Made by a program: the position numbers and the translations under genes. From contig CALUPT010000004.1 of NCBI GenBank assembly GCA_944322715.1, forward strand, positions 124,001 to 188,000: a DNA stretch of 64,000 nucleotides, written 5' to 3'. Numbering within the stretch: position 1 is the stretch's first letter; the number at the start of each line of letters is the position of its first letter. This DNA is from an uncultured Bacteroidales bacterium (lineage in GTDB: Bacteria; Bacteroidota; Bacteroidia; Bacteroidales; UBA932). Of the stretch, positions 14,237 through 34,100 are shown piece after piece. Under the pieces are notes generated by a model. It ran no database searches. It had not been told where the DNA came from and was given only the letters and a program-made list of their open reading frames with translations.

Positions 14237-15439
14237 ATGGCAAACATCTCTCTAAAAGCACAGCAGATGCCCGCCTCTGCCATCAGGAAACTGGTTCCTC
14301 TGTCAGATGCGGCAAAGAAACAGGGAATCAAGGTCTATCATCTCAATATGGGCCAGCCTGACATAAAATCTCCCGAATGCGCACTCAAGGCGGTAAGAGA
14401 GAATAAGCTCACCCATGTTTCCTATTCCAACTCGGCCGGTCTTGCCGAACTCCGTACAGGACTCATCGAGAAATACTACAGAAAGATAGGCATCGACATC
14501 GACATGTCGGAAATCATCATAACCATTGCCGGCAGCGAGAGCGTCAACCTGGCGCTCCAGATTGCCTGCGATGCCGGGGACGAGGTGATAGTGCTGGAGC
14601 CGTTCTATACCAACTACAACACTTTCGCATTCATGAACGGGCTCACGCTCAAATCCATACCTACCGATATCAAAAGCGGTTTCCAGGTGCCTGACATAGA
14701 GGAGTTCGAGAAAGCGATCACCCCGAAGACAAAGGCTATCCTCATCTGCAACCCTGGCAATCCGACAGGGACCCTGTATTCGAAGGAAAGCATGCTTGCA
14801 ATAGGTGAAGTCGCAAGGAAGCACGACCTGTTCCTTATCTCGGATGAGGTGTACAGGGAGTTCTGCTACACGGACGAGCCGCATTTTTCCGCTATGCACA
14901 TACCGGATCTCGACCAGAACGTGATCCTCGTGGATTCGGTCTCCAAGAGATACAACCTCTGCGGTGCGCGTGTCGGATGCATCGTGTCCCATAACCAGGA
15001 AGTGATGAAAGCCGCCCTGAAATATGCCCAGGCAAGGCTGTGTCCTCCGGTTCTCGGACAGATTGCCGCCATCGGCGCGCTCGACACTCCCGACTCATAC
15101 ATACAGGCGGTAAGGGAAGAATACATAAAGAGGAGGAACTACATGATAGAGACCCTCAACGGAATCGAAGGAGTGTACTCCCCTATGCCTATGGGAGCCT
15201 TCTATACCGTTGCGAAACTTCCTGTCGACAATACGGAGGATTTCGCAAGGTGGATGCTGGAGACATTCAGACTCGACAACTCCACTACAATGGTCACTCC
15301 TGCGGCATCATTCTACAAGACTCCTGGCAAGGGCATCAATCACGCCCGTCTTGCATACGTGCTGGAGATACCTGAACTGGAAAAGGCCCTCCATGTGCTT
15401 GAGGAAGGCCTCAAGGCATATCCGGGCAGGACAATGTAA
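14237..15439 (+). CDS. PLP-dependent class I/II aminotransferase
   Basis: Fold-type I aminotransferase of 400 residues, probably acting on aspartate or another amino acid with 2-oxoglutarate. Seen are HLNMGQPDIKSP near the N-terminus, the SESVNLALQ segment of the phosphate-binding site, the CNPGNPTG motif, ISDEVYREF with the conserved Asp and Tyr, and SVSKRYNLCGARVGC with the PLP lysine. The C-terminal substrate Arg lies in HARLAYV. It is divergent from glnN, which links it loosely to nitrogen metabolism. The 3' end overlaps the convergent phosphoesterase gene by 29 bases. Substrate is not determined. Confidence 0.9.
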   Translation: MANISLKAQQMPASAIRKLVPLSDAAKKQGIKVYHLNMGQPDIKSPECALKAVRENKLTHVSYSNSAGLAELRTGLIEKYYRKIGIDIDMSEIIITIAGSESVNLALQIACDAGDEVIVLEPFYTNYNTFAFMNGLTLKSIPTDIKSGFQVPDIEEFEKAITPKTKAILICNPGNPTGTLYSKESMLAIGEVARKHDLFLISDEVYREFCYTDEPHFSAMHIPDLDQNVILVDSVSKRYNLCGARVGCIVSHNQEVMKAALKYAQARLCPPVLGQIAAIGALDTPDSYIQAVREEYIKRRNYMIETLNGIEGVYSPMPMGAFYTVAKLPVDNTEDFARWMLETFRLDNSTTMVTPAASFYKTPGKGINHARLAYVLEIPELEKALHVLEEGLKAYPGRTM

Positions 15440-16526
15440 ATACCGTGATCTCGGGAGGGACTCCGGCACGGGCAGGAAAACCGGTCTCGCCGAGCCCCGT
15501 ATTGACATACAGATACTGCGGACAGCGGATGTCTTCACAAAGACCATCCCTGTCCGCTTTTTTCGTGCCGTCGGTCACCTCGTCCGACCTGCAGTAAAGT
15601 CCGGAATATTCCTTATATATGAATGAGGCCGGTGACCAGCCGAAGATGGCAAGCTGCATAGCGTGTGTATGACCTGAAAGCATTATGTCGACATCATCCC
15701 TGTACACCACCTCCTTTCTCCAGTGTGTGGGATCGTGGCTCATCAGTATGACATAGTCGCCGGCTGCATATGAAAGCGCCTTGTCAAGGTCGCCATCGGA
15801 AGGGAAATGCGGATGTGCAGATATGTTCCGCACACCGGCGATGGTCACTGTATCTCTGCAGAGACTGCCGTCAATGCAGGAGAAGGATGTCCTTGCGACA
15901 TTCACACAGCTGTCCAGAAGGACTGTCCAGCCCATATTCTCCTCCTTTTCGACAAGCGTCTCAAGGGCCGCCAGCCTTTCTTCTTCCGATGCATATTCCG
16001 TATATGTGCAATAGTCGTGGTTGCCGAGCACAGAATACACGCCGTCTTTGGCCCTGAGCCGCGACAGCACGGCTGCAAGCTCACTGTTCAGTTCATCAGG
16101 AGAGAATGTTATCATATCCCCTGTAAACAGGATCAGATCGGGATCTAGGCTGTTGACTTTATCCACTGCACGACTCAGGGAGCGGGCCCTGCCCTGGAAT
16201 GAACTCAGATGGATATCCGACAGCTGGACTATCCTATAGCCATCAAAGGATTCAGGAATGCTGTCGCTAATGATCTCCACCTCCTTGACATTGTATATGT
16301 TACGCTCAATAAGACAGCCGTATGCAAAGACCGGCAGAGGGAGCAGGACGAACCACAGTCCCCTGCGGAAAAATGTACGGAACCTGACACCGAAAACGGA
16401 GGCTATGCCTCCGGAAATTACAACCAGCAGCAGCACAAGCAGACAGGCTGCCGTCAGTCCAGATAAAGTTATCAGAAAAATCACCATAAAAAATACAGCG
16501 GCAGGCATAGACCAGAACCGCTGCAA
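15411..16526 (-). CDS. Membrane-anchored metallophosphoesterase
   Basis: Calcineurin-like phosphoesterase of 371 residues. Two hydrophobic N-terminal segments (about 10-45 and 57-71) anchor it in the inner membrane. The catalytic domain follows with DIH (Asp104, His106), GD (Asp137), GNHD (Asn169, His170), SHD (His264) and GHTH (His286, His288), the complete set of metal ligands. Relatives (YaeI-like) hydrolyse phosphodiesters or UDP-sugar lipids, and the substrate here is unknown. Its start is 2 bases after the stop of the FISUMP-like lipoprotein gene, so it is probably the last gene of the adhesin operon. It converges and overlaps with the aminotransferase. Confidence 0.9.
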   Translation of the reverse strand: MQRFWSMPAAVFFMVIFLITLSGLTAACLLVLLLVVISGGIASVFGVRFRTFFRRGLWFVLLPLPVFAYGCLIERNIYNVKEVEIISDSIPESFDGYRIVQLSDIHLSSFQGRARSLSRAVDKVNSLDPDLILFTGDMITFSPDELNSELAAVLSRLRAKDGVYSVLGNHDYCTYTEYASEEERLAALETLVEKEENMGWTVLLDSCVNVARTSFSCIDGSLCRDTVTIAGVRNISAHPHFPSDGDLDKALSYAAGDYVILMSHDPTHWRKEVVYRDDVDIMLSGHTHAMQLAIFGWSPASFIYKEYSGLYCRSDEVTDGTKKADRDGLCEDIRCPQYLYVNTGLGETGFPARAGVPPEITVFTLSCPDMP

Positions 16527-16528
16527 AT

Positions 16529-18067
16529 TTAATAGATATATTCCACATCTGATTTCCTGAACCGGAGAATCCTGGTATCCTTGGGGCCTGCTCCGTTCTT
16601 AGTCATATACAGTCCGCCCATCGAACCGCCCATATACCACCCTTCTCCTTCCGGTGAATACACTCCGAAAAGCATATTGTTGTGATGGCCGTAATGTCTT
16701 ATGCCTTCCGATGTATTCCATTGCGCTCCCGGGCCATACCAAACGACCGCTTCATTCTCCGGGAAATCCGGGGAAGACATGGCGATATGGATAAGGTCAT
16801 CTATGGTCATGCTGCCTACCGGGATACCGTTTCTGCGCCTCTGCGTCCTGTCTATCATAGAATGTCCCTCCCACGGCTCCTTCAATGCATGCGTGCCGTT
16901 CCACATCATCCAGATATAGTCGGTCGCATCGAAAATCCTGTTGAAATCCTCCATGGACGGCAGTTCATATCCATCCGGAGAAAGGGCATCCGCCGGGAGA
17001 CGGTTGATATGGACTGAATTGTCCGGGTTGAATCCATCCATTGACGGAATCCCGTCCGAGTCGACTACCCTCATCCCGATACCGCTGTCACCCTGATATG
17101 CCCAGCCCCACAGACTTGCATATTCTTCCGCGGTGCATTCCGCCAGATAGTCGGAAAGCGGCTTTCCAGCCTTCGCAGCAGGATCATCGGCAGACAGGAT
17201 CTGGTCTTCGAAATCCCTGGAATTCCCCATAGCGTTATACTTGCACCACCAGATGCCGTGAAGGAAAGTCACCGGCAGACCGTAATTGAGTCTTGTCACG
17301 GTATATTCCTCCTTGCCCGTACCATCGGCATTCATTATGACTATCGTTGCCGACTGTTTCCGGCCATCCGCCGTAGGGTCATTCGGCCTCCAGCCTCCGA
17401 CAATCCGATATGTGCCTTCCGCTTCCTGTACCGGTCTGATATCGAGCCACATGTCCTCTCCATCCGGAAATCCGGCCGAGATCACCTTGCCGTCGGGAAT
17501 TACCGCCACTGCAAATTCGTTGTCGGCATATCTTCCGAAATCGAATGTGAAATCCTCCCGGAAATCCAGTATTCCTTCCATGACCGTCGGGTTAGGGGAA
17601 AGTTCAAGGACTATCCTGTCCTGCGGATACGCATGCTGCAGGCCCTTCCTCCTGAACCTCAGTTCAGTCACGAGTCCTTCCACTCCGGGAGCATAGAGCC
17701 CTTTCGAGACGGAGAAGGCATTCGGTCCGGTCTGCCGCACCTCGAGCCTGTATCCGTCTGAAGGAATGAGCTCCAGTTCATCCGGACTTTCTATGACGAG
17801 AGTGCATTCGGCTGCGGTATGGGGAAAGACAAGAAGCGTCCTGTCCGCATTCAGAATGACATCCTCCGGTATCGCGGATTTTTCCGCATCCACAGCCAGC
17901 CTGCTGTCCAGGTCCGGAACCAGGTCTATGTCTTCGTCTTCATAGTCTCCGATGACGGTCTCCGTCACGACATCCTTTTTCTCATCGGATATCACAATGT
18001 CAAGTTTGCTGCACGCCGCAATGACAGCCGCGGCAAAGGCAAACGGGATAAACAGTGTCCTTTTCAT
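16529..18067 (-). CDS. FISUMP-like secreted lipoprotein
   Basis: Secreted lipoprotein of 512 residues with signal peptide and lipobox AAVIAAC (Cys19). About residues 150-512 are homologous to the C-terminal part of the next gene upstream (18088-20355): both have FDFGRY or CDFGKY, PDGExxWxxxR, GGWRPNDPxADGR, the xYTVxRLNxGLPV string, a GIWWCKYNAMG-type segment and ADALSPDGYELPSxxDF, which recall the FISUMP domain. The N-terminal 150 residues are unique. It probably sits on the cell surface; ligand unknown. It lies 20 bases after that paralogue in the same operon. Confidence 0.7.
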   Translation of the reverse strand: MKRTLFIPFAFAAAVIAACSKLDIVISDEKKDVVTETVIGDYEDEDIDLVPDLDSRLAVDAEKSAIPEDVILNADRTLLVFPHTAAECTLVIESPDELELIPSDGYRLEVRQTGPNAFSVSKGLYAPGVEGLVTELRFRRKGLQHAYPQDRIVLELSPNPTVMEGILDFREDFTFDFGRYADNEFAVAVIPDGKVISAGFPDGEDMWLDIRPVQEAEGTYRIVGGWRPNDPTADGRKQSATIVIMNADGTGKEEYTVTRLNYGLPVTFLHGIWWCKYNAMGNSRDFEDQILSADDPAAKAGKPLSDYLAECTAEEYASLWGWAYQGDSGIGMRVVDSDGIPSMDGFNPDNSVHINRLPADALSPDGYELPSMEDFNRIFDATDYIWMMWNGTHALKEPWEGHSMIDRTQRRRNGIPVGSMTIDDLIHIAMSSPDFPENEAVVWYGPGAQWNTSEGIRHYGHHNNMLFGVYSPEGEGWYMGGSMGGLYMTKNGAGPKDTRILRFRKSDVEYIY

Positions 18068-18087
18068 TGTCTAAAATCGGTTTTACG

Positions 18088-20355
18088 TCAGTCGTACATA
18101 TACTCTACCGGTGTCTTTACACACCTTATCGTCCTTGTCTTGACAGTGTTGTGCACCGTATATTTCAGCCAGTTCTGTCCTGGACGGTCGTTCTGCGAAT
18201 AGCCTTCGAGGGACCATGACCTGCCGCTGTCTCCGTATGTCGCAAACAGGATGTTCATTCTGGCTACATTTCCGGCAACCGTGTTCCACTGGTGTCCGGG
18301 ACCATAGAGGACAAGACGGCTTCCCTCCGACTCGAACTCATAGAAGGCTACAGGACCATAATCCTGTCCGAGGAAATTCACTTCGCGTTCCACTATATTG
18401 ACTGTCAGCGGCTTGCCATCCCTGTTGACATAACTCCTCGTCCCGGTGCCACCGAGGTTGTAGTCATCGCCCGGGACAAGGAAGGCAAAATCATCGTATC
18501 CGGGTATCCTGTATCCGTCCGGCGCCATGATGGCAGGGTCGATAAGGCCGAAATTGTCAGGATTTGCCGTCACGCCCTCATAATGGAAACCGTTCCCGTC
18601 ATGGGCCAGCGGCATCCCCTGCAGCCTGCCTCCCTGATACTGGTCGCCCATGTACCGCAGAAGCTCATCATCTGTTACGGAAACCAGCATGTCAAGAAGG
18701 CTGTCGTATCCTTCCGCAGGATTTCCGGAGATGGTTATCTGGTCTGCATAATCCCCTGCATTGCCGGAAAGATTGTACTGCGCCCACCATGTCTGCCCTA
18801 TCCTGACTACCGGCAGTCCGATATTCAACCTCCTCACCGTATATGTTTCAGCCCCTGTTCCGCCGCTTCCGGATATGACTATCCTCGCTTCCTGCACCCT
18901 GCCATCCGCTTTCGGATCATTCGGTTTCCAGCCTCCTGTCAGTCTGTAGACTCTCTCCGCCGGATTTCGGGAAACCTCCCCTGCCGGGACTGTCTCCTCT
19001 GCCCTGATCCATTCGGACTCCCCGTCCGGATATTCAATGTCCAGAGTCATGCCGGCCGGCATGGAGACTGTCCCGAGTTCGCCATCGATATATTTTCCGA
19101 AGTCGCACGTCCCGTTTTCATCCAATGCCAGATGCCCTCCGAACACTACAGGGTTGGCTTCGAATACTATGACTATCCTTCCTGACAGGCTGCCTCCGCT
19201 CACCACATCGACATACATCCGTTCCGTCGTGCTCCCCGGGAGCCTGAATTCCGTGGAAATGTCTACTGAAGCGACATGTTCCATGGAGACTCTTGCCTTA
19301 CGCACCGAGACATCCGCTCCCCTTACCTCCCCTGATACGGACAATTCCGATTCCGGAGAGGCAAGTACCGCAAGGGAAAGTACATTACGGGTGTGAGGTA
19401 TGTACACGGTATCGCATGTCCGGCTCACCCTTACGCCATCCGGCAGCTGCGATGCACCGGTATCTACAAGACCTCCGTACACGGGGGATGTTCCCGATAC
19501 GTCTCCGGCAGCCCAGTCCCCATCCGTCACGGCCACGGAAGCTGCTGCGCCGGTCCCCCTGACGTCAAGAGTGTAAACCGTATTCCTTTTCAGTCTGTCC
19601 GGAAAAACGGCCCGCAGACGGTGCGTACCTTCGCCTGATGATATCACGATTCGGGCTTCTACACTGCCGCCATCCTGTTCCGGAATATATGACAAGAACC
19701 TGCGGCCGTTCTCAAGAGGGTCTCCGGACCAGTCTGCATGGATTTCAGAAGCGCCATCCGATACGGCCGGAGATTCCCTGCCGGGCCATATCATGCCCCT
19801 GTCTTTCAGTCCGGTCACCGAAACGGAGAGGACCCGCACCCCCTTCATCCTGGATGCGACATCGAGCCTTGCCGCACTTCTGGTAAGTCCCAGACCGCCC
19901 GAACTGCCATCTATACGCATGCTTCCCGACATGAGGACGCCATCCGCCGTCATCTCCGGCACCGCAGCATCCATCGACAGGAATTCCTCCTCGTCCAGTC
20001 CCGGACGAATGCTTTCCAGAGCCGATATTCCTGACGCGTTGGCCAGCACATACAGCATCCCATCCGCTGTTTCAGGGAGGAACATGTAACGGTCCCCATC
20101 CTGAGACACAGGAGCCATTATCTCCTGCAGATACCCTTCGGCAAATCTGTAAGCGGTCACATTGTCTATCCGGTATCCGTCCCCTGTCTCCTGCTCCGGT
20201 CCGCCGCCGGAATCCATTCCGCAGGCATACAGACGGACAGTCAGCCCTGACGGATTTTCTGGCCGGGCGCCATCTCCGGTACACCCGGCAAACACGGCAG
20301 GTATCAGCATACCCGCCATTATCAGATATTGAAACTTGTTTTTCATGTTTTCCAT
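18088..20355 (-). CDS. FimB/Mfa2-like lipoprotein with FISUMP-like C-terminal module
   Basis: Lipoprotein of about 755 residues (start at 20355, or three codons later at 20346). Signal peptide ends PAVFAGC. Residues about 35-280 resemble the N-terminal domains of FimB/Mfa2 fimbrial anchor proteins: LTVRLYACG, then VTAYRFAEG, MYVLANASG-like and the LTRSAARLDV strand. A middle beta-sandwich region (about 300-400) leads into a C-terminal module paralogous to the downstream lipoprotein, including GGWKPNDPKADGR and MAPDGYRIPGYDDF. Likely surface adhesin or fimbrial component; no polymerisation partner is visible in this operon. It follows the metalloprotease gene by 53 bases. Confidence 0.72.
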   Translation of the reverse strand: MENMKNKFQYLIMAGMLIPAVFAGCTGDGARPENPSGLTVRLYACGMDSGGGPEQETGDGYRIDNVTAYRFAEGYLQEIMAPVSQDGDRYMFLPETADGMLYVLANASGISALESIRPGLDEEEFLSMDAAVPEMTADGVLMSGSMRIDGSSGGLGLTRSAARLDVASRMKGVRVLSVSVTGLKDRGMIWPGRESPAVSDGASEIHADWSGDPLENGRRFLSYIPEQDGGSVEARIVISSGEGTHRLRAVFPDRLKRNTVYTLDVRGTGAAASVAVTDGDWAAGDVSGTSPVYGGLVDTGASQLPDGVRVSRTCDTVYIPHTRNVLSLAVLASPESELSVSGEVRGADVSVRKARVSMEHVASVDISTEFRLPGSTTERMYVDVVSGGSLSGRIVIVFEANPVVFGGHLALDENGTCDFGKYIDGELGTVSMPAGMTLDIEYPDGESEWIRAEETVPAGEVSRNPAERVYRLTGGWKPNDPKADGRVQEARIVISGSGGTGAETYTVRRLNIGLPVVRIGQTWWAQYNLSGNAGDYADQITISGNPAEGYDSLLDMLVSVTDDELLRYMGDQYQGGRLQGMPLAHDGNGFHYEGVTANPDNFGLIDPAIMAPDGYRIPGYDDFAFLVPGDDYNLGGTGTRSYVNRDGKPLTVNIVEREVNFLGQDYGPVAFYEFESEGSRLVLYGPGHQWNTVAGNVARMNILFATYGDSGRSWSLEGYSQNDRPGQNWLKYTVHNTVKTRTIRCVKTPVEYMYD

Positions 20356-20408
20356 TGCATTATAAGTCTATATGTTCCCTGAGCGGCATACGGCCGCAGC
20401 CATCCCCG

Positions 20409-22304
20409 CTACCGGTAAATATTGGGATTCGAGCCGGACTTCAGATATTCCGGAGAATCCACGGGCATCCTGTCCAGATGGCCGATATAGAAACTGTTCA
20501 TCAGTTCCTGCGCCCACGGCCCGTATGTGAAGGAACTGTTGTGGCTGTATCCCATCACATGACCGAGTTCGTGAAACATTACCTCGCAGGCATAGAGGGA
20601 GGTATAATGCTCCAGCCAGCCGCCCTGCCATGCCCCGAACGTGCTTCCTCCCCCGAGCCCCATCACCGAATTTCCGGTATATACCAGTCCGACATTGATG
20701 GTCCTCGTCTGCCTCATCTGACCGAGCACCGTCTCCACGGACACCTTGTCATCCACGCCCCCGTTGCCGTAGAGCCTGTCCTGATTCTCCCTGAGTATCC
20801 GCTCGTGTTCAGGCATGTCGATCATATATGTGAAATTCAGGAAAAAGGCGACCGCTTCCCTGCAATGCACGGGTCTGATCCCCATCCAGTTTCCGCTCGG
20901 TCCGCCATCCGGTCTGTCGGGATCCCCTCCGAAAAGGTCGAACCGTATGTTCCAGCCGTGCCGTATCTCCCGCAGTTTTCCCCAGTAGGGATCATCGGAC
21001 ACCACATCGTACTCCGCATCCGAAAACTGCGAAGGGTCCAGCCGCCCCACCTCCAGTATCCGTCCGGAGGCCGTCCTGTAGATGGCTTTCCTCTCCATGG
21101 AAGGGAGCAGCTCGTAAAAATCCGCGAATGCGGGCACCTCATCGAAGAAAGCAAGGTCGATGAACTCATCCGATACCGAAGGGATCCTTGCCCGCACAAG
21201 CACGTTCCTGACACTTCTCGGAGAATAGAACCTTACGTTAAGCCTGCCATCATCCCCCACGGAAAACTGCATCGGGCTTGCCGTGTTGAAATTGCGCAAC
21301 GACTTGTCCGTATATATGCCGTGATGCTCGTCATCCTGAAGGATGGCGCCGTGCCTCCCTTCCCTGTAGGCGGCATCCGTTATGAACATCGTACCAGATT
21401 CATCCTCCGGATGGACCACATCGGCATATACGGTCGATACGGTATTGGAGCATATACCGGACGGACCGTACGAGTATGTCCTGGATATGGTGTTGCCGCG
21501 GTAGTCCCTTGTCTTCATCCTGATATGCCCAGACATGTCCGCACCGCCTGCCGTAGGCATGAAAAGATACGACTGCCCCTGCGACATGTCGAGTTCCTCC
21601 ATCCTGCCATCGCTCTCTCCGGACAGGGAACCATCTCCGCGGAGTCCGGTATACAGTTTCATGTTCTCCAGGCCGGCCGTGCATTCCGTTACCGCAGTCC
21701 GGACATAGCGGTTCCTGTAACCGAGGTCGAAATCGAGCCTGCCCGCAATCCTCGTCTGCGTCACTTCCCCGGGCATGTCCGACACCGTCACAAGACCATC
21801 CGGAGATTCCTCGTGATATACGCGGAAAGGGGTGCTGGAATAGAAGTATTCCGCCTCCAGCGGACGCGCAAGGTCTTCCGGGAATGAGAGCCACACATCC
21901 GAGACATGTCCGATACTGTTTATTTCCGCCCCATCCATGCCGCTGTCACCTTTTATGCCGAGTACAAGCATCCTGTACCCGCCTTCCTGCAGCCCTTCTA
22001 TGTGTACAGTGGAAGAAGCCCTGTCGTAATATCCTTTCCAGCCCTTCTCCGGATTCCCATCCTCATCCACTACCACAAGTTCCACATGGTCGTAATCCGC
22101 CCTGTCAGGCCCCGTGCCGTATGTTTCCTCCCTGAAAGGCCTCTTGCGTTTCCCAGTATGGACATCGGGGGAATAGCCATCATACCTTAGCCCGAAAGAC
22201 ACTCCCCGCGGCAGAAGAGGTCCGGATATGCCCGGGGCATCCTCCTTCACGCAGGCTACAAGCATCGAAACTGCGGTCAACAATGCAATCACAAACTTTT
22301 TCAT
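20409..22304 (-). CDS. Secreted zinc metalloprotease lipoprotein (metzincin-like)
   Basis: Lipoprotein of 631 residues with signal peptide ending SMLVAC. A zinc site HELGHVMGYSH lies at about 578-588, the extended HExxHxxGxxH of metzincins, with a candidate Met-turn in QELMNSF about 15 residues later. The N-terminal third is beta-rich (GVSFGLRYDGYSPD, YDHVELVVVDEDG, RMLVLGIKGDSG) and resembles the FimB-like fold of the next gene, so catalytic and adhesin-like parts are fused (inference). The ATG at 22304 is chosen for the AGGAGG before it; the frame runs further upstream without a signal peptide. It is the first gene of the operon, behind the promoter at 22375. Confidence 0.8.
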   Translation of the reverse strand: MKKFVIALLTAVSMLVACVKEDAPGISGPLLPRGVSFGLRYDGYSPDVHTGKRKRPFREETYGTGPDRADYDHVELVVVDEDGNPEKGWKGYYDRASSTVHIEGLQEGGYRMLVLGIKGDSGMDGAEINSIGHVSDVWLSFPEDLARPLEAEYFYSSTPFRVYHEESPDGLVTVSDMPGEVTQTRIAGRLDFDLGYRNRYVRTAVTECTAGLENMKLYTGLRGDGSLSGESDGRMEELDMSQGQSYLFMPTAGGADMSGHIRMKTRDYRGNTISRTYSYGPSGICSNTVSTVYADVVHPEDESGTMFITDAAYREGRHGAILQDDEHHGIYTDKSLRNFNTASPMQFSVGDDGRLNVRFYSPRSVRNVLVRARIPSVSDEFIDLAFFDEVPAFADFYELLPSMERKAIYRTASGRILEVGRLDPSQFSDAEYDVVSDDPYWGKLREIRHGWNIRFDLFGGDPDRPDGGPSGNWMGIRPVHCREAVAFFLNFTYMIDMPEHERILRENQDRLYGNGGVDDKVSVETVLGQMRQTRTINVGLVYTGNSVMGLGGGSTFGAWQGGWLEHYTSLYACEVMFHELGHVMGYSHNSSFTYGPWAQELMNSFYIGHLDRMPVDSPEYLKSGSNPNIYR

Positions 22305-22374
22305 TTCACTGTTTCCTCCTATATTTGCATAAGTTTTTCCATTTGAAGCCATGCAGGCTTCCCTGTTCCGGGCG

Positions 22375-22418
22375 CAAAGATACCTGAACCGGCCGCCATA
22401 ATCCGTAACAAATGTTAC
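22375..22418 (-). promoter_or_regulatory. Promoter and candidate Crp-type operator of the adhesin operon
   Basis: A -7 element TATCTTTG (22382-22375) has no TTTG at the expected -33. Instead a palindrome GTAACA-AA-TGTTAC (22405-22418) is centred about 41 bases before the predicted transcription start, the class II activator position. GGCCGCC direct repeats flank it (22391-22397, 22423-22429). The divergent crp gene starts 47 bases beyond. Confidence 0.6.
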
Positions 22419-22464: not shown

Positions 22465-23076
22465 ATGCATTGCGAGATTACCGACATTCCTCTTTTCAGA
22501 GGCGGAGACATACAGGCGATAGAGAGAATCCTCGATGATTCCCCGAGCAGATATTCTACATACGGGAAAGGCGACATCATAGCGATGCAGGGCAATGCCT
22601 GCCGCTCGCTGTATGTTCTCTGCGAGGGCAGCGTCTATGCCAAAATGATAAGCGAAGAGGGAAAGGAATTCACCCTGGACACCCTCTCCGCACCGGAAGT
22701 GCTTGCTTCGGCATTCGTATTCAGCACCCAGGGCATATTTCCGGTAACGATAATAGCAAACAGCGACTGCGGTATCTGGGTACTGAACAAGGAATGCATG
22801 TTCAGGATAATACGGGAGGACAATGCCGTACTGAGAAACTATCTGACAATCATATCCGACCACAGCATGTTCCTCAGCACAAGGCTGCACGAGTTCGCCC
22901 TCCAGACGCTGGCTTCGCGCGTCACGAGCTACATTGGCAAGAACGGCATCCTCCGGAATCTGCAGGAAGCGGCATTCATCCTCGGGGTTGCCCGTCCATC
23001 GCTCTCCCGGACCGTGGCACAGTTAGTGGCGCAGGGCACGCTCGTCAGGGATGAACAGGGCTACCGTCTTGCATGA
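22465..23076 (+). CDS. Crp/Fnr family transcriptional regulator
   Basis: Regulator of 203 residues: an N-terminal cyclic-nucleotide-binding-type beta barrel (about 10-125; the segment YSTYGKGDIIAMQGNACRSLYVLCEGSVY is typical), a dimer helix (about 125-150) and a winged helix-turn-helix of the HTH_Crp type at the C-terminus (NLQEAAFILGVARPSLSRTVAQL). No Cys cluster for an Fe-S centre is seen, so an Fnr-type sensor is unlikely. The effector is unknown. It is divergent from the adhesin/metalloprotease operon with a palindrome between, so it probably regulates that operon. The 3' end overlaps the convergent hydrolase gene by 32 bases. Confidence 0.9.
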   Translation: MHCEITDIPLFRGGDIQAIERILDDSPSRYSTYGKGDIIAMQGNACRSLYVLCEGSVYAKMISEEGKEFTLDTLSAPEVLASAFVFSTQGIFPVTIIANSDCGIWVLNKECMFRIIREDNAVLRNYLTIISDHSMFLSTRLHEFALQTLASRVTSYIGKNGILRNLQEAAFILGVARPSLSRTVAQLVAQGTLVRDEQGYRLA

Positions 23077-25928: not shown

Positions 25929-27200
25929 TCAAAGTATTCTGAACCAGTTGAACATAGGGGACACATCGCTGGTGCCTTCTATTGCAATGGTCTGTTTCCC
26001 GTCCGCGAACGGAAGCTCGACTGTGACTGTACTCCATAAGCGTCCGGTATCAGGCAGGTTTACAGTGACCTTGCTGCCGTTCACCGTAAAATCCACTGAA
26101 GTGGCGAGATAAGTCCTGACCCTGAGCTCTACCTGTCTGGTACCGCCTGCCACATCCACCTGATACTCCACTTTCTGCCCCGCAACGAGATTTCCGATAT
26201 GAAGCACTCCGGCTTCATCAGTGGTCGGCTCGACTGTGACACCTCCCCGGAATGCAGAGTAGTGTTCAGCCTGCATGATCTGCCCCTGTCTATAATACAG
26301 ATTCCTGTCCTGAGTGGACATGTTCACGAAGACTTCACCAAGCTCAGTAAGAGAAAACGGAGGACGACCTCCTGTAATCAATGAATTGTGGCACTGTTCC
26401 TCTCCGTTTCCGCGAGGTATGAACCAGGCATAACGGAACACATCAGGATCAGCTTCTAGCCTGTTGATTGCATCCACCATAAATTTCATCTGCTGTTCTG
26501 CGCTGATACTGTTGTTGTCCCAGTTGCAGAACTCTGTCAGCCATATCGGCTTTCCGTATTTTCTGAATCCATCTATATAGTCCATAAGGGCGGTTGCGCT
26601 TCCCATATAGCAATGCACGGCAATCCCGTCCACATCATCCAAAGACACGCCCGGCTGGGCAAAGAACTCATCAAGCCATTTCCAGGGATCGCTGTACCCT
26701 TCAAGAGTGCCATAGTTCATCGCCGGCGAGATCAGCTTCATCCCGAGCTCGTCCGCAAGAGCCACCACATCCGGCCAGAATGCAGCCGCCTGCGCAGGAG
26801 TCATGTTTGCCTGGTCAGTCAGGTTAGGCTCGTTGAATGCAAGGATGTATTCTGCTTCAGGATGGGACTTTTTGTAAGTCCTGATATTGTCAGGATTGTA
26901 ATTGCCGTTCCAGATCATCGGGCACCAGTCCATCCCGTACTGCGAGAAAAGGTTCTGTGCGGTTTCCGAAGGGACACTGCTGGACCAGTTGTATGACCAT
27001 GATATCGCCGGACCGAGCACCGGGATATCGTACTGTGGAAGCTGGTCGAAATTATAGCTCACTCCCCTTTTCTGGCTCTTTGCCTGATATGATACGTTTG
27101 CCATGTCCGGAGTCACAGGCTCGAGAGCGCCGTCCCTGGAACATGATACGGCTGCTGCCGATACCAGGAGCAGCACAATAGACAATCTGAAGAATTGCAT
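25929..27200 (-). CDS. GH128-type beta-1,3-glucanase lipoprotein with C-terminal CBM6-like domain
   Basis: Surface or periplasmic lipoprotein of 423 residues (lipobox AAAVSC, Cys20). Residues about 40-285 match the Asl1-like glycosyl hydrolase core (GH128): GVSYNFD, then AFNEPN with the acid/base Glu124 and WLTEFCNW with the nucleophile Glu223. The last 120 residues (QAEHYSAFRGGVTVEPT..., VEYQVDVAGGTRQVELRV) look like a CBM6 carbohydrate-binding domain. GH128 enzymes cut beta-1,3-glucan. It is the last gene of the minus-strand locus, 6 bases after the GH16 gene. Confidence 0.88.
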   Translation of the reverse strand: MQFFRLSIVLLLVSAAAVSCSRDGALEPVTPDMANVSYQAKSQKRGVSYNFDQLPQYDIPVLGPAISWSYNWSSSVPSETAQNLFSQYGMDWCPMIWNGNYNPDNIRTYKKSHPEAEYILAFNEPNLTDQANMTPAQAAAFWPDVVALADELGMKLISPAMNYGTLEGYSDPWKWLDEFFAQPGVSLDDVDGIAVHCYMGSATALMDYIDGFRKYGKPIWLTEFCNWDNNSISAEQQMKFMVDAINRLEADPDVFRYAWFIPRGNGEEQCHNSLITGGRPPFSLTELGEVFVNMSTQDRNLYYRQGQIMQAEHYSAFRGGVTVEPTTDEAGVLHIGNLVAGQKVEYQVDVAGGTRQVELRVRTYLATSVDFTVNGSKVTVNLPDTGRLWSTVTVELPFADGKQTIAIEGTSDVSPMFNWFRIL

Positions 27201-27206
27201 GTGTCT

Positions 27207-28127
27207 TTAATTTTTCTGATAAACCCTTACATAATCCACATACATCTTCGCTTCGTCCCCGTCCTGTGGAAGGGCAGTGATGCCTGACGCGTTCAGGATT
27301 CCGGTAAAGCGTCCGCCGACTGCAAGATTGAAGATTATGAAGAAGTCATGGTGGAAATAAAGCCCCGTACTCCAGTCGTCAGAAGTGTCATTGATATCCA
27401 TCTTGTAGTAAGGGGCATTGTCAGGATATTTGTCCATATCCAGATACATGCTCAGGGAATTCTCGTCCCAGATGAGGGTGAAAAGATGGAACTCCCCGTC
27501 CTGGAGGCTGTAGCTGTTGGTCTTGCTGTTGGCGTAGTTAGGATATGCACCGTCCCTGTAGAAGCCCCAGTGGGCTGCCCCGTTGAAGAAACGGTCCTGG
27601 GTGCCGCTGGAGATCCCGGCTGAATTGCCCATCTCCATGATGTCTATCTCTCCGCAGCGCGGCCAGCCGTTTGTGTCATAATCGGCTCCGAGCAGCCAGA
27701 ATGCAGGCCAAAGCCCGTTGGCTGTGGAAGGAAGCTTGATGCTGGCTTCCACCTTCCCGTGGGTGAATTCGTATCTGTCGCTGGTGTTCAGCCTTCCTGA
27801 AGTGAAGCTCTTGCCGTTGAAATTCTCTCTCCTGGCGGTGATTATAAGGCATCCGTTGCCATCTTCGTCAGGACCTACAGAGATATTCTCTGCCCTGTAA
27901 TATTGAAGTTCCTGGTTTCCGCCGCCGTCACCGTTGACTTCAATATACCATTTGCTCTCGTCGAGGGCACCGTCATTGAACTGGTCCTCCCATACGAGCT
28001 TGTAACCGTCAGTCTCTCCTGAACCTGTGCCGGATCCTGCAGGACCGCCCTCTTCACCTGTGTTCAGATTTCCCGAGCATGCCACTGCGAGAGACAGGAA
28101 CGGTATCAAAAACAATATCTTTTTCAT
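27207..28127 (-). CDS. GH16 laminarinase lipoprotein
   Basis: Endo-beta-1,3-glucanase (or mixed-linkage glucanase) of glycoside hydrolase family 16, 306 residues. Start at 28127 (MKKILFLIPFLSLAVAC) gives a lipoprotein signal peptide; Cys17 is followed by a Gly/Ser/Glu linker to about residue 42. The catalytic motif EIDIMEMG has the nucleophile Glu160, Asp162 and acid/base Glu165. Upstream, YKLVWEDQFN and GLWPAFWLLG form part of the glucan cleft; WxxxVNGDGGGNQELQYY is the usual laminarinase N-terminal signature. It sits with GH128, SusC and SusD, consistent with cutting laminarin-like glucan at the cell surface. Confidence 0.95.
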   Translation of the reverse strand: MKKILFLIPFLSLAVACSGNLNTGEEGGPAGSGTGSGETDGYKLVWEDQFNDGALDESKWYIEVNGDGGGNQELQYYRAENISVGPDEDGNGCLIITARRENFNGKSFTSGRLNTSDRYEFTHGKVEASIKLPSTANGLWPAFWLLGADYDTNGWPRCGEIDIMEMGNSAGISSGTQDRFFNGAAHWGFYRDGAYPNYANSKTNSYSLQDGEFHLFTLIWDENSLSMYLDMDKYPDNAPYYKMDINDTSDDWSTGLYFHHDFFIIFNLAVGGRFTGILNASGITALPQDGDEAKMYVDYVRVYQKN

Positions 28128-28140
28128 CTCTAATAATTTA

Positions 28141-28177
28141 AGGGCGGCCTCCATACCATTGCGAATGGAGCCGCCCT
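28141..28177 (-). repeat. Hairpin between the surface lipoprotein and GH16 genes
   Basis: Arms AGGGCGGCcTCCAT (28141-28154) and ATGGAgCCGCCCT (28165-28177) pair along 13 positions with one bulge. No T run follows on the minus strand, so it is more likely a processing or stability element within the operon than a terminator. Confidence 0.6.
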
Positions 28178-28200
28178 GGTTTATTGAATGTTAGCCGGGA

Positions 28201-29031
28201 CTAGTTCTTCTGGTAGAAGAAGACTGCGTCCAGGTCGAGTGTAGTTCCCTGAGTTGCAGGAGATGTAGAGAACTGGAAGAAGTTTGCTGAAGTAGGGGTT
28301 ACATCCCATTTCATGTTCATGTCTGAAACCTTTACCTCGTACTCTTCCCATTCACCGACATTGAATTCGCCGTCAAGTGGAGTGATTGCATTGAGTGTTG
28401 CGACAGGTTGTCCTGCTGAATCGCTCTGGACGATAGAGCCTTCTCCAATAGCGAATGCATATGAAGACTTGTCTGAGGCATTGCCCTCAGCCCAGTTGAG
28501 AGTGATCAGCTGAGCCACGTCTTCCTGATTGGTCTTGTATGCAAGGTGCAGATAATATTCGCCTGTAGCGAGATCTTTGATCAGGTCGAGATCCTTCCTG
28601 TCAGCAAGTCCTTCTGTAGTAAGGTTGTACGCTCCGCCAGTCCAATTGACAGTACCAACCACGAATGAAACCCATCCTTCACCGAATCCGCATGAATTAA
28701 GTCCGCTTGGAGTACCGCCGACATATGTTCCCTCCCATACATAAAGACCGATTCCATCCTTGGTCTCGCCATTGACATCGATAGTATATGGCTGGAGATC
28801 CATCTTGATCTTGCCTTCATCCTCGAGCATCTCATACTCCTCTGCACCGAGGGTGATGATGTAATAGTCCTTGCCGTTGGTAAGAGCTTCTGGAAGCGGA
28901 ATAGTAAGTCCGCCTTCACCTTCATTTCCACCATTTCCGCCGGTAGTTGTGTTAGAGTCATCCTTCTTGCAAGAAACCATTGCCAGGGCTGCGCAAATAG
29001 CCGCAACTGCAAATAACAGATTTTTTCTCAT
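28201..29031 (-). CDS. Surface glycan-binding lipoprotein (SusE/SGBP position)
   Basis: Lipoprotein of 276 residues (lipobox LAMVSC, Cys21, then KKDD acidic signal typical of surface export in Bacteroidales). The mature protein is beta-rich with many aromatic and Gly residues; no enzymatic motif is seen. It lies directly after susD, the normal place of the SGBP-B/SusE lipoprotein that holds glucan at the surface. The C-terminal part (VKVSDMNMKWDVTPTSANFF, LDLDAVFFYQKN) has the look of a carbohydrate-binding beta-sandwich. Assignment is mainly by position. Confidence 0.7.
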   Translation of the reverse strand: MRKNLLFAVAAICAALAMVSCKKDDSNTTTGGNGGNEGEGGLTIPLPEALTNGKDYYIITLGAEEYEMLEDEGKIKMDLQPYTIDVNGETKDGIGLYVWEGTYVGGTPSGLNSCGFGEGWVSFVVGTVNWTGGAYNLTTEGLADRKDLDLIKDLATGEYYLHLAYKTNQEDVAQLITLNWAEGNASDKSSYAFAIGEGSIVQSDSAGQPVATLNAITPLDGEFNVGEWEEYEVKVSDMNMKWDVTPTSANFFQFSTSPATQGTTLDLDAVFFYQKN

Positions 29032-29092
29032 GATTGTTTTGTTTTTAAAGTGTTGATAATTTTTATAGCTGGTTCAGGTTTTATCCGCTGAA

Positions 29093-30733
29093 TCAATATC
29101 CGTTGTTCTGTGTGAGACCGCTGAGTCTTACCTCCTCGTCAGGGATCGGGAACAGCTCGTGCTTTCCTGCCACGAATTCCGACATGGCAGACCTCGCCTC
29201 TTCAGTCTCTGCCGCCTTATATGCATCCATAACTTCCTTCACTATCCCCCAACGACACAGGTCAAACCATCTGTGGCCTTCCATCGCAAGCTCGCACCTT
29301 CTCTCGTGCCTGATGGCCATCTCAAGATCTTCAGGAGTGTCTGTCAACTGGTGCATCGCATATGCCTGCCTGTAGTCAGGGACTTCATAATCAGGGAACT
29401 GAGGCAGGATAGACGCCGACCCCCTTGCCCTGCTGCGGACATTCTCAAGATAAGTCTTTGCGCCAGGAGTATCACTGTTTTTGAGGCAGACCTCCGCATA
29501 TAGCAGATAGAAGTCAGCAAGCCTGTAGACCACATTGTTGATAGGAGAACGCGAATTGTGGTCGAGTTTCATATATTCGTCATCCACGGTCAGAGTCCTT
29601 TTGACTGCCACGTTGCTGCATCCGAGATAAGTCTCTTCAGTCGGGTTGGACATCTCGGCCTGGGACATTTCCCTGATGCTTGCCTTTTTCCTCGGGTCTC
29701 CCGCTTCGAATTCATTCTTCAGGTTGTCTGTCGGCTTGTTGAATCCCCAGCCCGGATTGTCAAGGTTGGCAGAGCGCGACCGGATAAGCATAGTTGTGAA
29801 AGTTCCTCTCGTGAATCCGTTGCCCTCTCCGTAATCGGAAGTAGGTTCGGCCATATACTGGATTTCAAAAATGGATTCGTTGCCGTTTTCACCCTCAAGC
29901 GTAAAATTGTCCTCATAGTTCTGGCATAGAGAATATTCGGCAGCCTGCTCCGAAAGGAATGTATCCCCCCATTTCTTGGCTTCAGTGTAGCAATCTACAG
30001 TAGTCGTAGACTTACCCTGCTCCTTGAAATTACCCCAGTAGAGGTAGACTTTCATCAGCATCGCCTGGGCAGCACCGCTTGTTACCCTTCCAAGGTCAGC
30101 GCTCTCGTACTGGCTCTTCTTGGGGAGGTCCGGCTCTGCTTCTTCGAGATCCTTGACCATCAATGCATAGATATCATCCAAAGATGCCCTCGGCTGTTTC
30201 CAGTCATCGCTTGTGTAGATCGGGGCTTCAACCTTAGGCACACCTCCGAAAATCCTCACAAGCCTGAAATAGTAGAATGCCCTGAGAAATTTTGCTTCAG
30301 CAACTATGCGCTCCTTGAGCCCGTTGGTCTCGAACTTGTCGTCAGACATCCCTGACACCTGCTCTATACACAGGTTTGCCCTCTGGATTCCCTGATACTG
30401 TGCCCTGTAATAATCGAGCAGAAGAGTATTGTTGGAGATGGTCCTGAAATTCTCGATATCATACGCATCTGCCATGTCGGAAGTGTTCTGTCCCCCTTTC
30501 AGGGCATCGTCTGAAGCTATGTCACCGATGAACCATTCGCAATAATAAGTGCTGTTGAACTCCCACATGAGAGGAGCGTATGCTGCGTTAACAGACTGGA
30601 TGGCGGCTGCTTCCCCTGTGAAATAATCTTCAGGAGAGTTGGTCATCGGACCTTCTTCGCTGAGCCAGTCATTACATGAGACCAGAGACATCGCGCCAAG
30701 TCCCAATATACCGTATAATATATATTTTCTCAT
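29093..30733 (-). CDS. susD: SusD/RagB-like glycan-binding lipoprotein
   Basis: Outer-membrane lipoprotein of 546 residues that forms the lid of the SusC transporter. The signal peptide ends with lipobox MSLVSC (Cys20). N-terminal SusD features (NDWLSEEGPMTNSPEDYF, then AAIQSVNAAYAPL, YRAQYQGIQRANLCIEQV) with TPR-like helices and the C-terminal RagB/SusD region (RHERRCELAMEGHRWFDLCRWG, ending LFPIPDEEV) are all present. Its start is 11 bases after the susC stop. Like its partner it should bind beta-1,3-glucan oligosaccharides. Confidence 0.96.
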   Translation of the reverse strand: MRKYILYGILGLGAMSLVSCNDWLSEEGPMTNSPEDYFTGEAAAIQSVNAAYAPLMWEFNSTYYCEWFIGDIASDDALKGGQNTSDMADAYDIENFRTISNNTLLLDYYRAQYQGIQRANLCIEQVSGMSDDKFETNGLKERIVAEAKFLRAFYYFRLVRIFGGVPKVEAPIYTSDDWKQPRASLDDIYALMVKDLEEAEPDLPKKSQYESADLGRVTSGAAQAMLMKVYLYWGNFKEQGKSTTTVDCYTEAKKWGDTFLSEQAAEYSLCQNYEDNFTLEGENGNESIFEIQYMAEPTSDYGEGNGFTRGTFTTMLIRSRSANLDNPGWGFNKPTDNLKNEFEAGDPRKKASIREMSQAEMSNPTEETYLGCSNVAVKRTLTVDDEYMKLDHNSRSPINNVVYRLADFYLLYAEVCLKNSDTPGAKTYLENVRSRARGSASILPQFPDYEVPDYRQAYAMHQLTDTPEDLEMAIRHERRCELAMEGHRWFDLCRWGIVKEVMDAYKAAETEEARSAMSEFVAGKHELFPIPDEEVRLSGLTQNNGY

Positions 30734-30744
30734 ATCCTGTTCAT

Positions 30745-33700
30745 TTAGAATGTGATGTTCAGACCAAGCATGAATGTGCGTGACTGAGGGTAGTTACCGT
30801 AATCCACACCGCCTCCCACTTCAGGGTCGTAACCCGAATATTTGGTGATTGTAAAGAGATTGTTGGCAGAAAGATAGATTCTGCAGCGGCTCATCTTTGC
30901 CTTGCTGATCCATCTGTCCGGAAGCGAATATCCTATCTGGAAGGTCTTCAGCCTGAGATATGAGCCGTCCTCGATAAGACGGTCGCTGTCCTCGTTGTTG
31001 GTAGGACTGCCTTTCGGATTAGGGATGGTTCCTGACGGATTGGATTCTGTCCACACATTTTTCATGGTCCTGCTGAAAGTAGCCTCATTACCTGTGCCTT
31101 CCGTACGGAGACGCACTGCATTGAAAATCTCGTTTCCTGCCACGCCCTGGAAGAAGAGCTGGACATCGAGACCTTTCCAGTTGAGACCTGCATTGATGCT
31201 GTATGTCAGCCATGGGAAAGGATTTCCGAGGTCAGTCTTGTCGTTCTCGTCGATTTTTCCGTCATTGTTGCGGTCCACATATTTCGCATCGCCAGGCTTG
31301 CAGACAGGATTGTCAGTAGCCCAGAGGTGCTCCTTGACCTCTTCCTCAGACTGGTAGATGCCGTCATACTGGTATCCCCAGAAAGTATAGAGGGCATATC
31401 CCTCGTCGCTTATGGTACGGTCTCCATAGACTCTCGCACCACCGTTAAGGGCAGTCAGCTCATTCTTGATGAACGACATGTTGCCACCGATGTTATAGTC
31501 CACCTCCCCGATACGGTTCCTGTGGTTGAGAGTAAGCTCGACACCTGAATTGCGGACTGTACCGACATTGGCTGTAGCAGAATACCTGTTCCCGACATGT
31601 GCAGGTGCTGTCACCCCGAGAAGCATGTCTTTCGTGTCCCTGATGAAGTATTCCAAAGTACCTGTGAGCCTGTTGTTAAGGACTCCGAAATCAAGTCCCA
31701 CATTCCACTGCTCCGTAGTCTCCCAATGTCCGCCGCTGTTGACATATGTCAGGATAGAGGCTCCGTTGGCAAGCTGCTGGTCGCCGGGACCGAGGACATA
31801 GTCCACGAATGTTGGTCCGCTGTTGAATATCGACAGGAGGAATGCATTGTCGCCGATCTTGTCATTTCCGATACGGCCCCATCCTGCCCTGAGCTTGAGG
31901 TCATCGAGCCATGATATGCCTTTCATCCATTTCTCGTTGCTGATTCTCCATGCCAGCGCAGTGGAAGGGAAATAACCCCAGAGCTTGTCCTGGAACTTGC
32001 TCGAACCGTCAGCCCTGAAGTTGACAGTGATCAGATAACGGCTGTCATACGAATAATGGAGACGGCCGAGCAGAGAGAATCTTCTGCTTCTCGACACTGA
32101 ATCCGAGCCGTAAGAGCGGTTGGTCGTGGCCTGAGCCAGATACCAGTTCTTTTCTGCAGGATTGACGATGGATGCTCCCGAGCCTCCTATGCTGTAGGAA
32201 TTGTATTCCTCCGTGGTCTGACCGACCATCGCAGAGAAGCTGTGCTTCTTGATGTCACGGGCATATGTCAGGATATTCTCCACAATGACAGTTGAATACC
32301 TTGCCATATTGCTTTCGATGAAGTTCTCATCCATCTTGTCGAAGCTTGAGAACTCATACGAGTCCTTGAAGAGCCTGTGACGGGTGTTGGAAAGGTCAAG
32401 GCTGACGTCAGAGCGGAAAGTAAGACCTTTCAAAGGATTGATTTCAAGGAATATATCCCCTACCCAGCGCTCAGTCTTGTCTGACGGATGCGACATCTCC
32501 ACCATTGAAAGAGGGTTGGTGACATTCTTGAAGTTGGATGCCGCACTGATCTGTCCTCCGAGAGAGTCTCCCCTCCAGTTGACAGCATTGTCAGGATATC
32601 TTGCAGGATCCCACGGAGCCATTGCGATAGCCGCAGAAAGGATTGAGGCCCCCGGGCTGCTGTTGTTGTTCATGGCGTTCCTGCCCCATGAATTCATGAA
32701 AGTCAGGTTCTCGCCTATCTTGAGCCATTTGGTGATCTGGTGAGAAGAATTGGCCCTGAGGGTCACCCTGTGATAGTCAGAGCCTATGATAGTACCGTCC
32801 TGGTTGTAGTAGCTTCCGCTGATTGCCCATGAACTCTTCTCGTTGCCGCCGTCCACTGAAAGGTGGTAATTCTGCACAATGGCATCCCTGAACACCACAT
32901 CCTGCCAGTCGGTGTCTATGTTGGAGTAGTTCATGTTGGTCGGGTAATATTTCGAGTTGCCGATCAGGGTCTTCCTAACCCATGAATCCCTGCCCTCGTT
33001 GTTCAGGATGTTGATCGACTCCTGGTTGCCGTTCATTGCAGCAAGGGCATGAGAAAATTCATCCGCATTCATCAGATCGAGCTTTCTCCACCTTGACTGG
33101 ACACCTACATAAGCGTCGAACGACACCCTTGTGCGTCCTGCATCACCACCTTTCTTGGTAGTCACAAGTATCACTCCGTTTGCACCTCTGGAACCGTAGA
33201 TAGCAGTAGCCGATGCATCTTTCAGAATCTCTGTGGACACGATGTCGTTGGGACTGACATAAGATATGTCGCTGACGATGACTCCATCCACCACATAAAT
33301 AGGTGAACTGTCATTGACAGTCCCGATTCCCCTGATTCTCACCTGGGATGCCGCACCCGGCTGTCCTGAATTGGAAGTCACGGTCACACCAGCTGCCAAG
33401 CCCTGCAGAGCCTGGTCGAGACCTGCGGCCGGAGTCCTCTGCAGCTCTTCCGACTTGACAGAAGATACGGAACCGGTAAGGTCGCTCTTTTTCATCACTC
33501 CATAGCCAATGGCCACAACCTCATCAAGCATAACCGCATCCGTCTTCATAGCGACATCTATAGTCCTCGGGGAATTCCCTGAAATAGGGAAAAGCTGGTC
33601 CTTGAAACCTATGGAAGTGAAAAGAAGCGTCTGTCCGTCCTGGACATCGATAGAATATTTACCGTCAAGGTCAGTTGAAGTACCTTGGACCGTACCTTGT

Positions 33701-33831
33701 ACTACAACAGAGACACCTGGAAGCGGCAAGCCGTCATCGGCCGAAGTCACCACTCCGCTGACAGTCGCTGTCTGCGCAAACGAGACCTGCAAGAAAAGCA
33801 GCAGACTCGCAAGGGATAGAAAAATTTTCAT
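30745..33831 (-). CDS. susC: SusC-like TonB-dependent transporter
   Basis: Outer-membrane transporter of 1028 residues: signal peptide (MKIFLSLASLLLFLQVSFAQ), a carboxypeptidase-regulatory-like N-terminal domain (TVSGVVTSADDGLPLPGVSV to about residue 95), the plug domain with VRIRGIGTVNDSSPIYVVDG and the SusC signature SRGANGVILVTTKKG, then the 22-strand barrel ending MLGLNITF with a terminal aromatic. It imports glucan fragments into the periplasm with TonB/ExbBD, which are not in this window. It is the first gene of the glucan locus. A -7 element TACTTTTG is at 33889-33882. Confidence 0.97.
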   Translation of the reverse strand: MKIFLSLASLLLFLQVSFAQTATVSGVVTSADDGLPLPGVSVVVQGTVQGTSTDLDGKYSIDVQDGQTLLFTSIGFKDQLFPISGNSPRTIDVAMKTDAVMLDEVVAIGYGVMKKSDLTGSVSSVKSEELQRTPAAGLDQALQGLAAGVTVTSNSGQPGAASQVRIRGIGTVNDSSPIYVVDGVIVSDISYVSPNDIVSTEILKDASATAIYGSRGANGVILVTTKKGGDAGRTRVSFDAYVGVQSRWRKLDLMNADEFSHALAAMNGNQESINILNNEGRDSWVRKTLIGNSKYYPTNMNYSNIDTDWQDVVFRDAIVQNYHLSVDGGNEKSSWAISGSYYNQDGTIIGSDYHRVTLRANSSHQITKWLKIGENLTFMNSWGRNAMNNNSSPGASILSAAIAMAPWDPARYPDNAVNWRGDSLGGQISAASNFKNVTNPLSMVEMSHPSDKTERWVGDIFLEINPLKGLTFRSDVSLDLSNTRHRLFKDSYEFSSFDKMDENFIESNMARYSTVIVENILTYARDIKKHSFSAMVGQTTEEYNSYSIGGSGASIVNPAEKNWYLAQATTNRSYGSDSVSRSRRFSLLGRLHYSYDSRYLITVNFRADGSSKFQDKLWGYFPSTALAWRISNEKWMKGISWLDDLKLRAGWGRIGNDKIGDNAFLLSIFNSGPTFVDYVLGPGDQQLANGASILTYVNSGGHWETTEQWNVGLDFGVLNNRLTGTLEYFIRDTKDMLLGVTAPAHVGNRYSATANVGTVRNSGVELTLNHRNRIGEVDYNIGGNMSFIKNELTALNGGARVYGDRTISDEGYALYTFWGYQYDGIYQSEEEVKEHLWATDNPVCKPGDAKYVDRNNDGKIDENDKTDLGNPFPWLTYSINAGLNWKGLDVQLFFQGVAGNEIFNAVRLRTEGTGNEATFSRTMKNVWTESNPSGTIPNPKGSPTNNEDSDRLIEDGSYLRLKTFQIGYSLPDRWISKAKMSRCRIYLSANNLFTITKYSGYDPEVGGGVDYGNYPQSRTFMLGLNITF

Positions 33832-33881
33832 GATTAGCTATTAAATATGCGGTCAAAACAAACCTGTCAAAACTGACGGGA

Positions 33882-33889
33882 CAAAAGTA
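33882..33889 (-). promoter_or_regulatory. Candidate -7 element of the susCD operon
   Basis: TACTTTTG on the minus strand is followed in the predicted 5' leader by an inverted repeat CCTGTCA-AAAC-TGACGGG (33863-33880, one mismatch). No TTTG at -33. An activator is therefore expected. Confidence 0.5.
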
Positions 33890-34072
33890 TGTATTTGCAT
33901 CCTCCATAGCACTGTCATTCACCTCACAAAAACTCAACATACCTCATAAAAATATTCTACAACAACTCTCTATATTTTCATATTTCATTATAAATCAATG
34001 GATTATTAATCCACTGCATTTAATTGCCACTACTTTCTTTACAGATTTCACATCACATTTCAGGAAAAAAGA

Positions 34073-34080
34073 TATTTTTG
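34073..34080 (+). promoter_or_regulatory. Candidate -7 element of the glucan regulator gene
   Basis: TATTTTTG lies 20 bases before the start of the regulator gene. The -33 half is not convincing. The 269-base gap between the divergent susC and regulator genes is AT-rich and holds no reading frame. Confidence 0.45.
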
Positions 34081-34100
34081 CATATAGAAATGACCGCATA

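Follow-up and report, generated by a model that had tools for sequence, protein, structure and literature searches.

A 64,000-nucleotide stretch of DNA from an uncultured Bacteroidales bacterium (contig CALUPT010000004.1, positions 124,001 to 188,000 of the forward strand; hereafter the window) carries an operon of three lipoprotein genes, named MET, L2 and L3, facing a divergent gene for a Crp/Fnr-family regulator. The source genome has 2.52 Mb in 25 contigs and is 99% complete. The regulator, its candidate operator and promoter, and the operon's genes and domains are located as follows, with positions counted from the first letter of the window.

22465..23076, plus strand: regulator gene, Crp/Fnr family, predicted HcpR2 type, 203 amino acids (aa), divergent from the operon
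22405..22418, no strand: operator GTAACATTTGTTAC (GTAAC-N4-GTTAC), with the HcpR2 motif (PMC1274295), between the regulator and MET
22375..22382, minus strand: -7 promoter element TATCTTTG of the operon (TAnnTTTG), 22 nt after the operator
20409..22304, minus strand: MET, the lead gene, a 631 aa lipoprotein with a predicted Mfa2-type pilin domain and metzincin; N-terminus ...LVAC-VKED
21393..22214, minus strand: pilin domain of MET (residues 31-304), Mfa2 anchor fold in an AlphaFold2 model aligned to 5nfi with VIA-align
20541..20573, minus strand: zinc-binding motif HELGHVMGYSH of MET (residues 578-588)
18088..20355, minus strand: L2, a 755 aa lipoprotein; N-terminus ...VFAGC
16529..18067, minus strand: L3, a 512 aa lipoprotein; N-terminus ...IAAC

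The three genes lie on the minus strand with gaps of 53 bases (MET to L2) and 20 bases (L2 to L3), and by sequence all three products have the lipobox-type N-termini of signal peptidase II precursors. A scan of genome contigs yielded 80 related loci with MET identities of 49-75%, to which the counts out of 80 refer. In all 80, to the limits of each contig, the order is MET, L2, an additional gene X in some loci, and L3 on a single strand; the arrangement is therefore not due to chance, and the MET-L2-L3 set (the cassette) is a real unit. An earlier note on this DNA had described three consecutive lipoproteins and proposed a search for the same gene order in other Bacteroidales, and both the description and the order held up. 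It had also placed the beginning of the lead gene near 22418; MET starts at 22304, and 22405-22418 is the operator.

Pfam and NCBIfam searches of MET, L2 and L3 returned sub-threshold matches only, and the proteins were therefore assigned through their folds. By model and sequence, MET is a lipoprotein with a predicted metzincin mounted on a Mfa2-type pilin domain. In particular, residues 31-304 of its AlphaFold2 model (mean pLDDT, the predicted local distance difference test score, 89.6) align with Mfa2 (5nfi) over 231 residues with a Z score of 12.5 and a root-mean-square deviation of 5.7 by VIA-align, and the top Foldseek rows for this domain are Bacteroidales pilins. The metzincin zinc motif HExxHxxGxxH is complete in MET, and the form HELGHVMGY[S/N/G]H occurs in 86/86 MET sequences (81 distinct). 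Hence a HELGHVMGYSH protease on a FimB-like N-terminus, and more broadly the joining of adhesin modules to a metzincin, stand as the earlier note had them. Residues 318-585, moreover, align with a solved metzincin, 9tpb/9tpc (titled 'Metallopeptidase' and 'metzincin'), at E values of 4.9e-15 with a profile and 3.5e-12 with a single sequence, and the two share the zinc motif; 9tpb is not among the fold-search matches for MET (library to April 2026), the link between them being one of sequence. Unlike MET, the aligned part of 9tpb has no pilin domain. The lipobox cysteine (C18) and a further pair, C481 and C573, are invariant in 51/51 MET sequences; neither C481 nor C573 is found in 9tpb at the aligned positions, and the pair may form a disulfide in MET.

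More distant relatives of the MET catalytic domain (L110-L115 and L117; 26-37% identity) have no pilin domain, and they often adjoin a 330-380 aa lipoprotein of unknown family (best seen in L111, L112, L114, L115 and L117), possibly a partner or inhibitor. At L116 (G070:C230), a distant full-length MET-like protein of 637 aa (23% identity) is followed by an L2/L3-like lipoprotein of 732 aa, and the pair is therefore older than the cassette group.

According to sequence comparisons and the L2 model (pLDDT 87.6), L2, together with L3 in most relatives, has the predicted layout of a type V tip pilin: a pilin domain, immunoglobulin-like (Ig-like) spacers and a C-terminal Fib_succ_major domain. The pilin domain of L2 (residues 33-280) matches 3up6 with a Z score of 16.4 and the Mfa3 tip pilin (5nf4) with 14.0, as expected from its earlier description as FimB/Mfa2-like, and is followed by Ig-like domains at about 290-512. 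The Fib_succ_major-like C-terminal domain, overlooked in the earlier note, gives sub-threshold Pfam matches in 21/51 members and is common to L3 by homology; structure searches returned no solved match for it, their list being filled by matches to the pilin and Ig-like domains. L3 was correctly called a shorter paralogue, its whole length aligning with L2 (hhalign E 8e-128). In the window it begins at the first Ig-like domain and the pilin domain is gone, so that the FimB-like folds once expected in all three proteins are present in the MET and L2 models and absent from L3.

Similarly, the absence of a recognisable fimbrial shaft gene is true within the window, and in 36/80 relatives the gene for a stand-alone pilin lipoprotein, X (roughly 300 aa), lies between L2 and L3. 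One carrier of X is the commensal isolate Barnesiella sp. An22. X matches the L2 pilin domain (E 1.3e-42) and the Pfam Mfa2 family (up to E 3.6e-10); it is absent from the window, and the rest of the source genome holds nothing beyond weak similarity to it. L3 is long in 64 of the 80 loci, short in nine, split by an apparent frameshift in two (L076:4380-6655 and L079:12134-14415) and cut by the contig end in five. In a pilin-domain tree, L3 domains from L012, L014, L022/L043 and L039/L061, loci that have no X, fall within the X clade; thus fusion of X to L3 appears to have happened on multiple occasions. The sister locus L011 keeps both X and the L3 pilin domain, of which the window has neither, and the loss in the window is therefore recent. 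Judging from the X::L3 fusions and the short versions of L3, its pilin parts seem to be dispensable scaffolding, with the protease retained along with the C-terminal domains of both L2 and L3, which favours a bind-and-cut complex over a fibre. The genome's only above-cut-off Pfam Mfa2 match is a separate 312 aa open reading frame on another contig (L001, G000:C2:89062-89868), perhaps belonging to a true fimbrial locus.

The Crp link, mentioned and left undeveloped in the earlier note, proved more informative than any other part. The divergent Crp/Fnr gene was indeed found (cNMP_binding E 2e-12; HcpR, 9day, E 4.7e-20), and a divergent regulator is present in 63/80 relatives by tblastn. The closest solved relatives of the regulator are Porphyromonas gingivalis HcpR (9DAY; 5v30/6np6) and T. 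maritima 1o5l. Published work assigns the motif GTAACnnnnGTTAC to the HcpR2 branch, whose normal target is hcp, and pairs it with a proline at CRP position 181 (PMC1274295); both the motif and the proline are present in the window. Further, the recognition pair R177-P178 and R182 are invariant in the cassette regulators, and Met61, kept in 63/64 of them, aligns with Met68, the heme ligand of P. gingivalis HcpR (PMC12750200).

The motif was first spotted in the window and afterwards tested on the relatives. A perfect GTAAC-N4-GTTAC occurs in 62/63 Crp-linked intervals as cut by script, the 63rd (L023) being perfect once the cut was widened, and also in L024 and L054, where the regulator was not found. 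Composition shuffling produced zero perfect palindromes, as did dinucleotide shuffling of the window, and the bases flanking the palindrome on its upstream side are variable between loci; because of this variable flank, common descent alone does not explain the palindrome's conservation. The Bacteroides -7 consensus is TANNTTTGY (PMC12632263), and TAnnTTTG lies exactly 22 nt past the palindrome toward MET in 63/63 promoters, compared to none toward the regulator and 0.7 expected; the same spacing holds in L023, L024 and L054. The -33 TTTG is absent at its usual place, which coincides with the end of the palindrome, and by spacing the palindrome is centred near -41. The layout of operator, 22 nt and TAnnTTTG also occurs, as read by eye, immediately ahead of hcp in L154 and some 1.1 kb ahead of it in L149 and L150. 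Regulator and palindrome are both missing in 15 loci of Bacteroidaceae/Parabacteroides type (the title of L050 says no more than Bacteroidales); these loci (L044, L047, L049, L050, L057, L060, L065, L070, L071, L076, L081 and L086-L089) also have no -7 box at that spacing.

The regulator's nearest relatives in other Bacteroidales (31-35% identity) share a contig with hcp in G082, G088, G092 and G070, and no Prismane match, and so no hcp, was found in the source genome or in five other cassette genomes. Because this hcp linkage is missing, the regulator is filed as HcpR2-like in its predicted mechanism and not as HcpR proper. The genome contains one other GTAACN4GTTAC (C3:129379), which lies within a SusD-like open reading frame and was rejected as an operator and taken as chance; since this only other site is intragenic, a regulator of nitric oxide (NO)-sensor type appears to serve the MET operon alone.

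The reading preferred here, with a probability of about 0.5, is that the locus encodes a dedicated, regulated surface bind-and-cut complex, built of type V pilin parts and placed under an NO-sensor-type activator. A site centred near -41 is in the class II activator position of established Crp/Fnr promoters, and because of this position the regulator would activate the operon in the class II manner. By analogy with HcpR, its signal would be nitrosative or linked to heme, and given such a signal, host inflammation may switch the operon on. The MET, L2 and L3 lipoproteins would then reach the cell surface, where a glycoprotein from the host or from microbes may be bound by L2 and L3 and cleaved by MET. 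Loci that have X may form a short fibre; in the window, the loss of X and of the L3 pilin domain makes a compact membrane-anchored complex likelier than a true pilus. A more specific version, offered tentatively and with the odds somewhat against it, is an NO-gated surface protease in which an HcpR2-type sensor has moved from hcp to a pilin-mounted metzincin and its adhesins, so that host glycoprotein is cut chiefly during inflammation. If true, it would identify the promoter, the sensor family and the enzyme for inflammation-switched surface proteolysis by gut commensals of several families, and would show the type V pilin fold serving to carry an enzyme as well as in adhesion.

Several observations weigh against this bind-and-cut complex and its switch. 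The 15 loci named above keep the operon with neither regulator nor operator, and the switch is therefore not essential to the operon. At 203 aa, the cassette regulator falls short of the 228 aa of HcpR, and the recognition pair of P. gingivalis HcpR has Q, not P. On the enzyme side, the Met-turn methionine of MET appears from alignments to be replaced by phenylalanine: the zinc motif is followed by H-x3-F-T-Y in the cassette group (F592) versus H-x3-M-T-Y in most distant relatives, with M in 9tpb at the position of the F, and a further invariant methionine, M602, lies downstream of F592. Others have connected Fib_succ_major tip pilins with lectin-like binding of ligands; for the C-terminus of L2, such a fold is putative.

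Pilin domains in MET, L2, X and long L3 could instead belong to a self-processing fimbria, in which the metzincin would trim the N-terminal strands of L2, X and long L3 and so replace the Rgp/clostripain maturation that leads to polymerisation by strand exchange; the earlier note had suggested a self-processing surface adhesin, an idea retained here as an alternative. Surface proteases do mature type V pilins (PMC5954841; PMC12632263), but the known maturation proteases are not metzincins encoded alongside pilins, distant metzincin relatives exist that have no pilin partners, and the protease is always kept even though the window and nine relatives have neither X nor an L3 pilin domain. Overall, a fimbria of this kind is unlikely. 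The same low standing is given to a protease for nutrients or mucus under a regulator that responds to some other cue, either a different small molecule or a redox state, with no link to NO. The ligand sensed can differ between Crp/Fnr proteins whose DNA contacts are related, and hcp, the usual HcpR target, has no match in the genome; against this, the motif, the recognition-helix pair and the heme-ligand methionine all indicate the HcpR2 branch, and the same promoter layout is seen near hcp. Improbable, and more so than either of these, is a regulator that represses the operon and does not activate it. Crp/Fnr proteins can repress and the site is close to the promoter, but in 63/63 promoters it is clear of the -7 box and replaces the missing -33 element at class II distance, and P. 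gingivalis HcpR activates hcp (PMC12750200).

Compared to known systems, the bind-and-cut complex would have parts that are each of a known kind in a combination not found described in the literature searched; in particular, no description of a pilin-metzincin operon was found there, few subscription journals being covered. With the type V pili of P. gingivalis (FimA/Mfa1, with Mfa1 as stalk, Mfa2 as anchor and Mfa3-5 as tip), the cassette shares lipoprotein precursors, the pilin fold and a tip-like protein with an extra C-terminal domain, and the X of its relatives resembles a stand-alone pilin. It differs in that the window has no stalk pilin gene, its Mfa2-like protein bears a metzincin, and the partner proteins can drop the pilin domain entirely. 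With the HcpR/HcpR2 systems of nitrosative stress and hcp, it shares the palindrome, the R-P pair, the heme-ligand methionine, the closest solved relatives and the promoter layout; in contrast, the cassette regulator faces a surface protease operon, not hcp, in a genome with no hcp match. Further, a lipoprotein with Mfa2 and Fib_succ_major domains has been reported as a target of a diversity-generating retroelement in human stool (PMC4159848) and resembles L2 in its lipoprotein nature, pilin domain and C-terminal Fib_succ_major domain, whereas the C-terminal domain of L2 is conserved and not hypervariable. The source genome, 99% complete as noted, holds no RVT_1 match for a reverse transcriptase and has the L2 3′ end in a single copy, and diversification of L2/L3 by such an element was rejected.

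The distribution of the cassette is patchy. Close MET and close regulator orthologues occur in the identical 6/101 genomes, all of the window's genus, and two more of the 101 have distant MET relatives only; in an order-level sample, 16/393 genomes have any MET match. The relatives are titled Cryptobacteroides, Barnesiella, Alistipes, Bacteroides, Phocaeicola, Mediterranea, Parabacteroides and Odoribacter, which span several Bacteroidales families, and the nearest named one found is Candidatus Cryptobacteroides intestinavium (MET 75% identical). Poultry-associated species appear in many of the record titles.

Beyond L3, one neighbour was judged not to be part of the unit.

15411..16526, minus strand: membrane metallophosphoesterase (YaeI/LpxG-like)

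It begins 2 bases past L3 in the window, and the earlier note listed it after the three lipoproteins. It lies beside the cassette in only 2/80 loci, the nearest relatives L011 and L012, and its homologue is on a different contig in five other cassette genomes of the genus; it was therefore rejected as an operon member, and the envelope-remodelling role once proposed has no support left after its removal. Flanks differ between loci, the divergent regulator being the sole recurrent neighbour; the next commonest flanking group occurs at nine loci, in mixed positions. Farther along the window, at 25929-36944, large open reading frames (423, 315, 276, 546 and 1028 aa on the minus strand and 947 aa on the plus strand) resemble a polysaccharide utilisation locus in their size and order.

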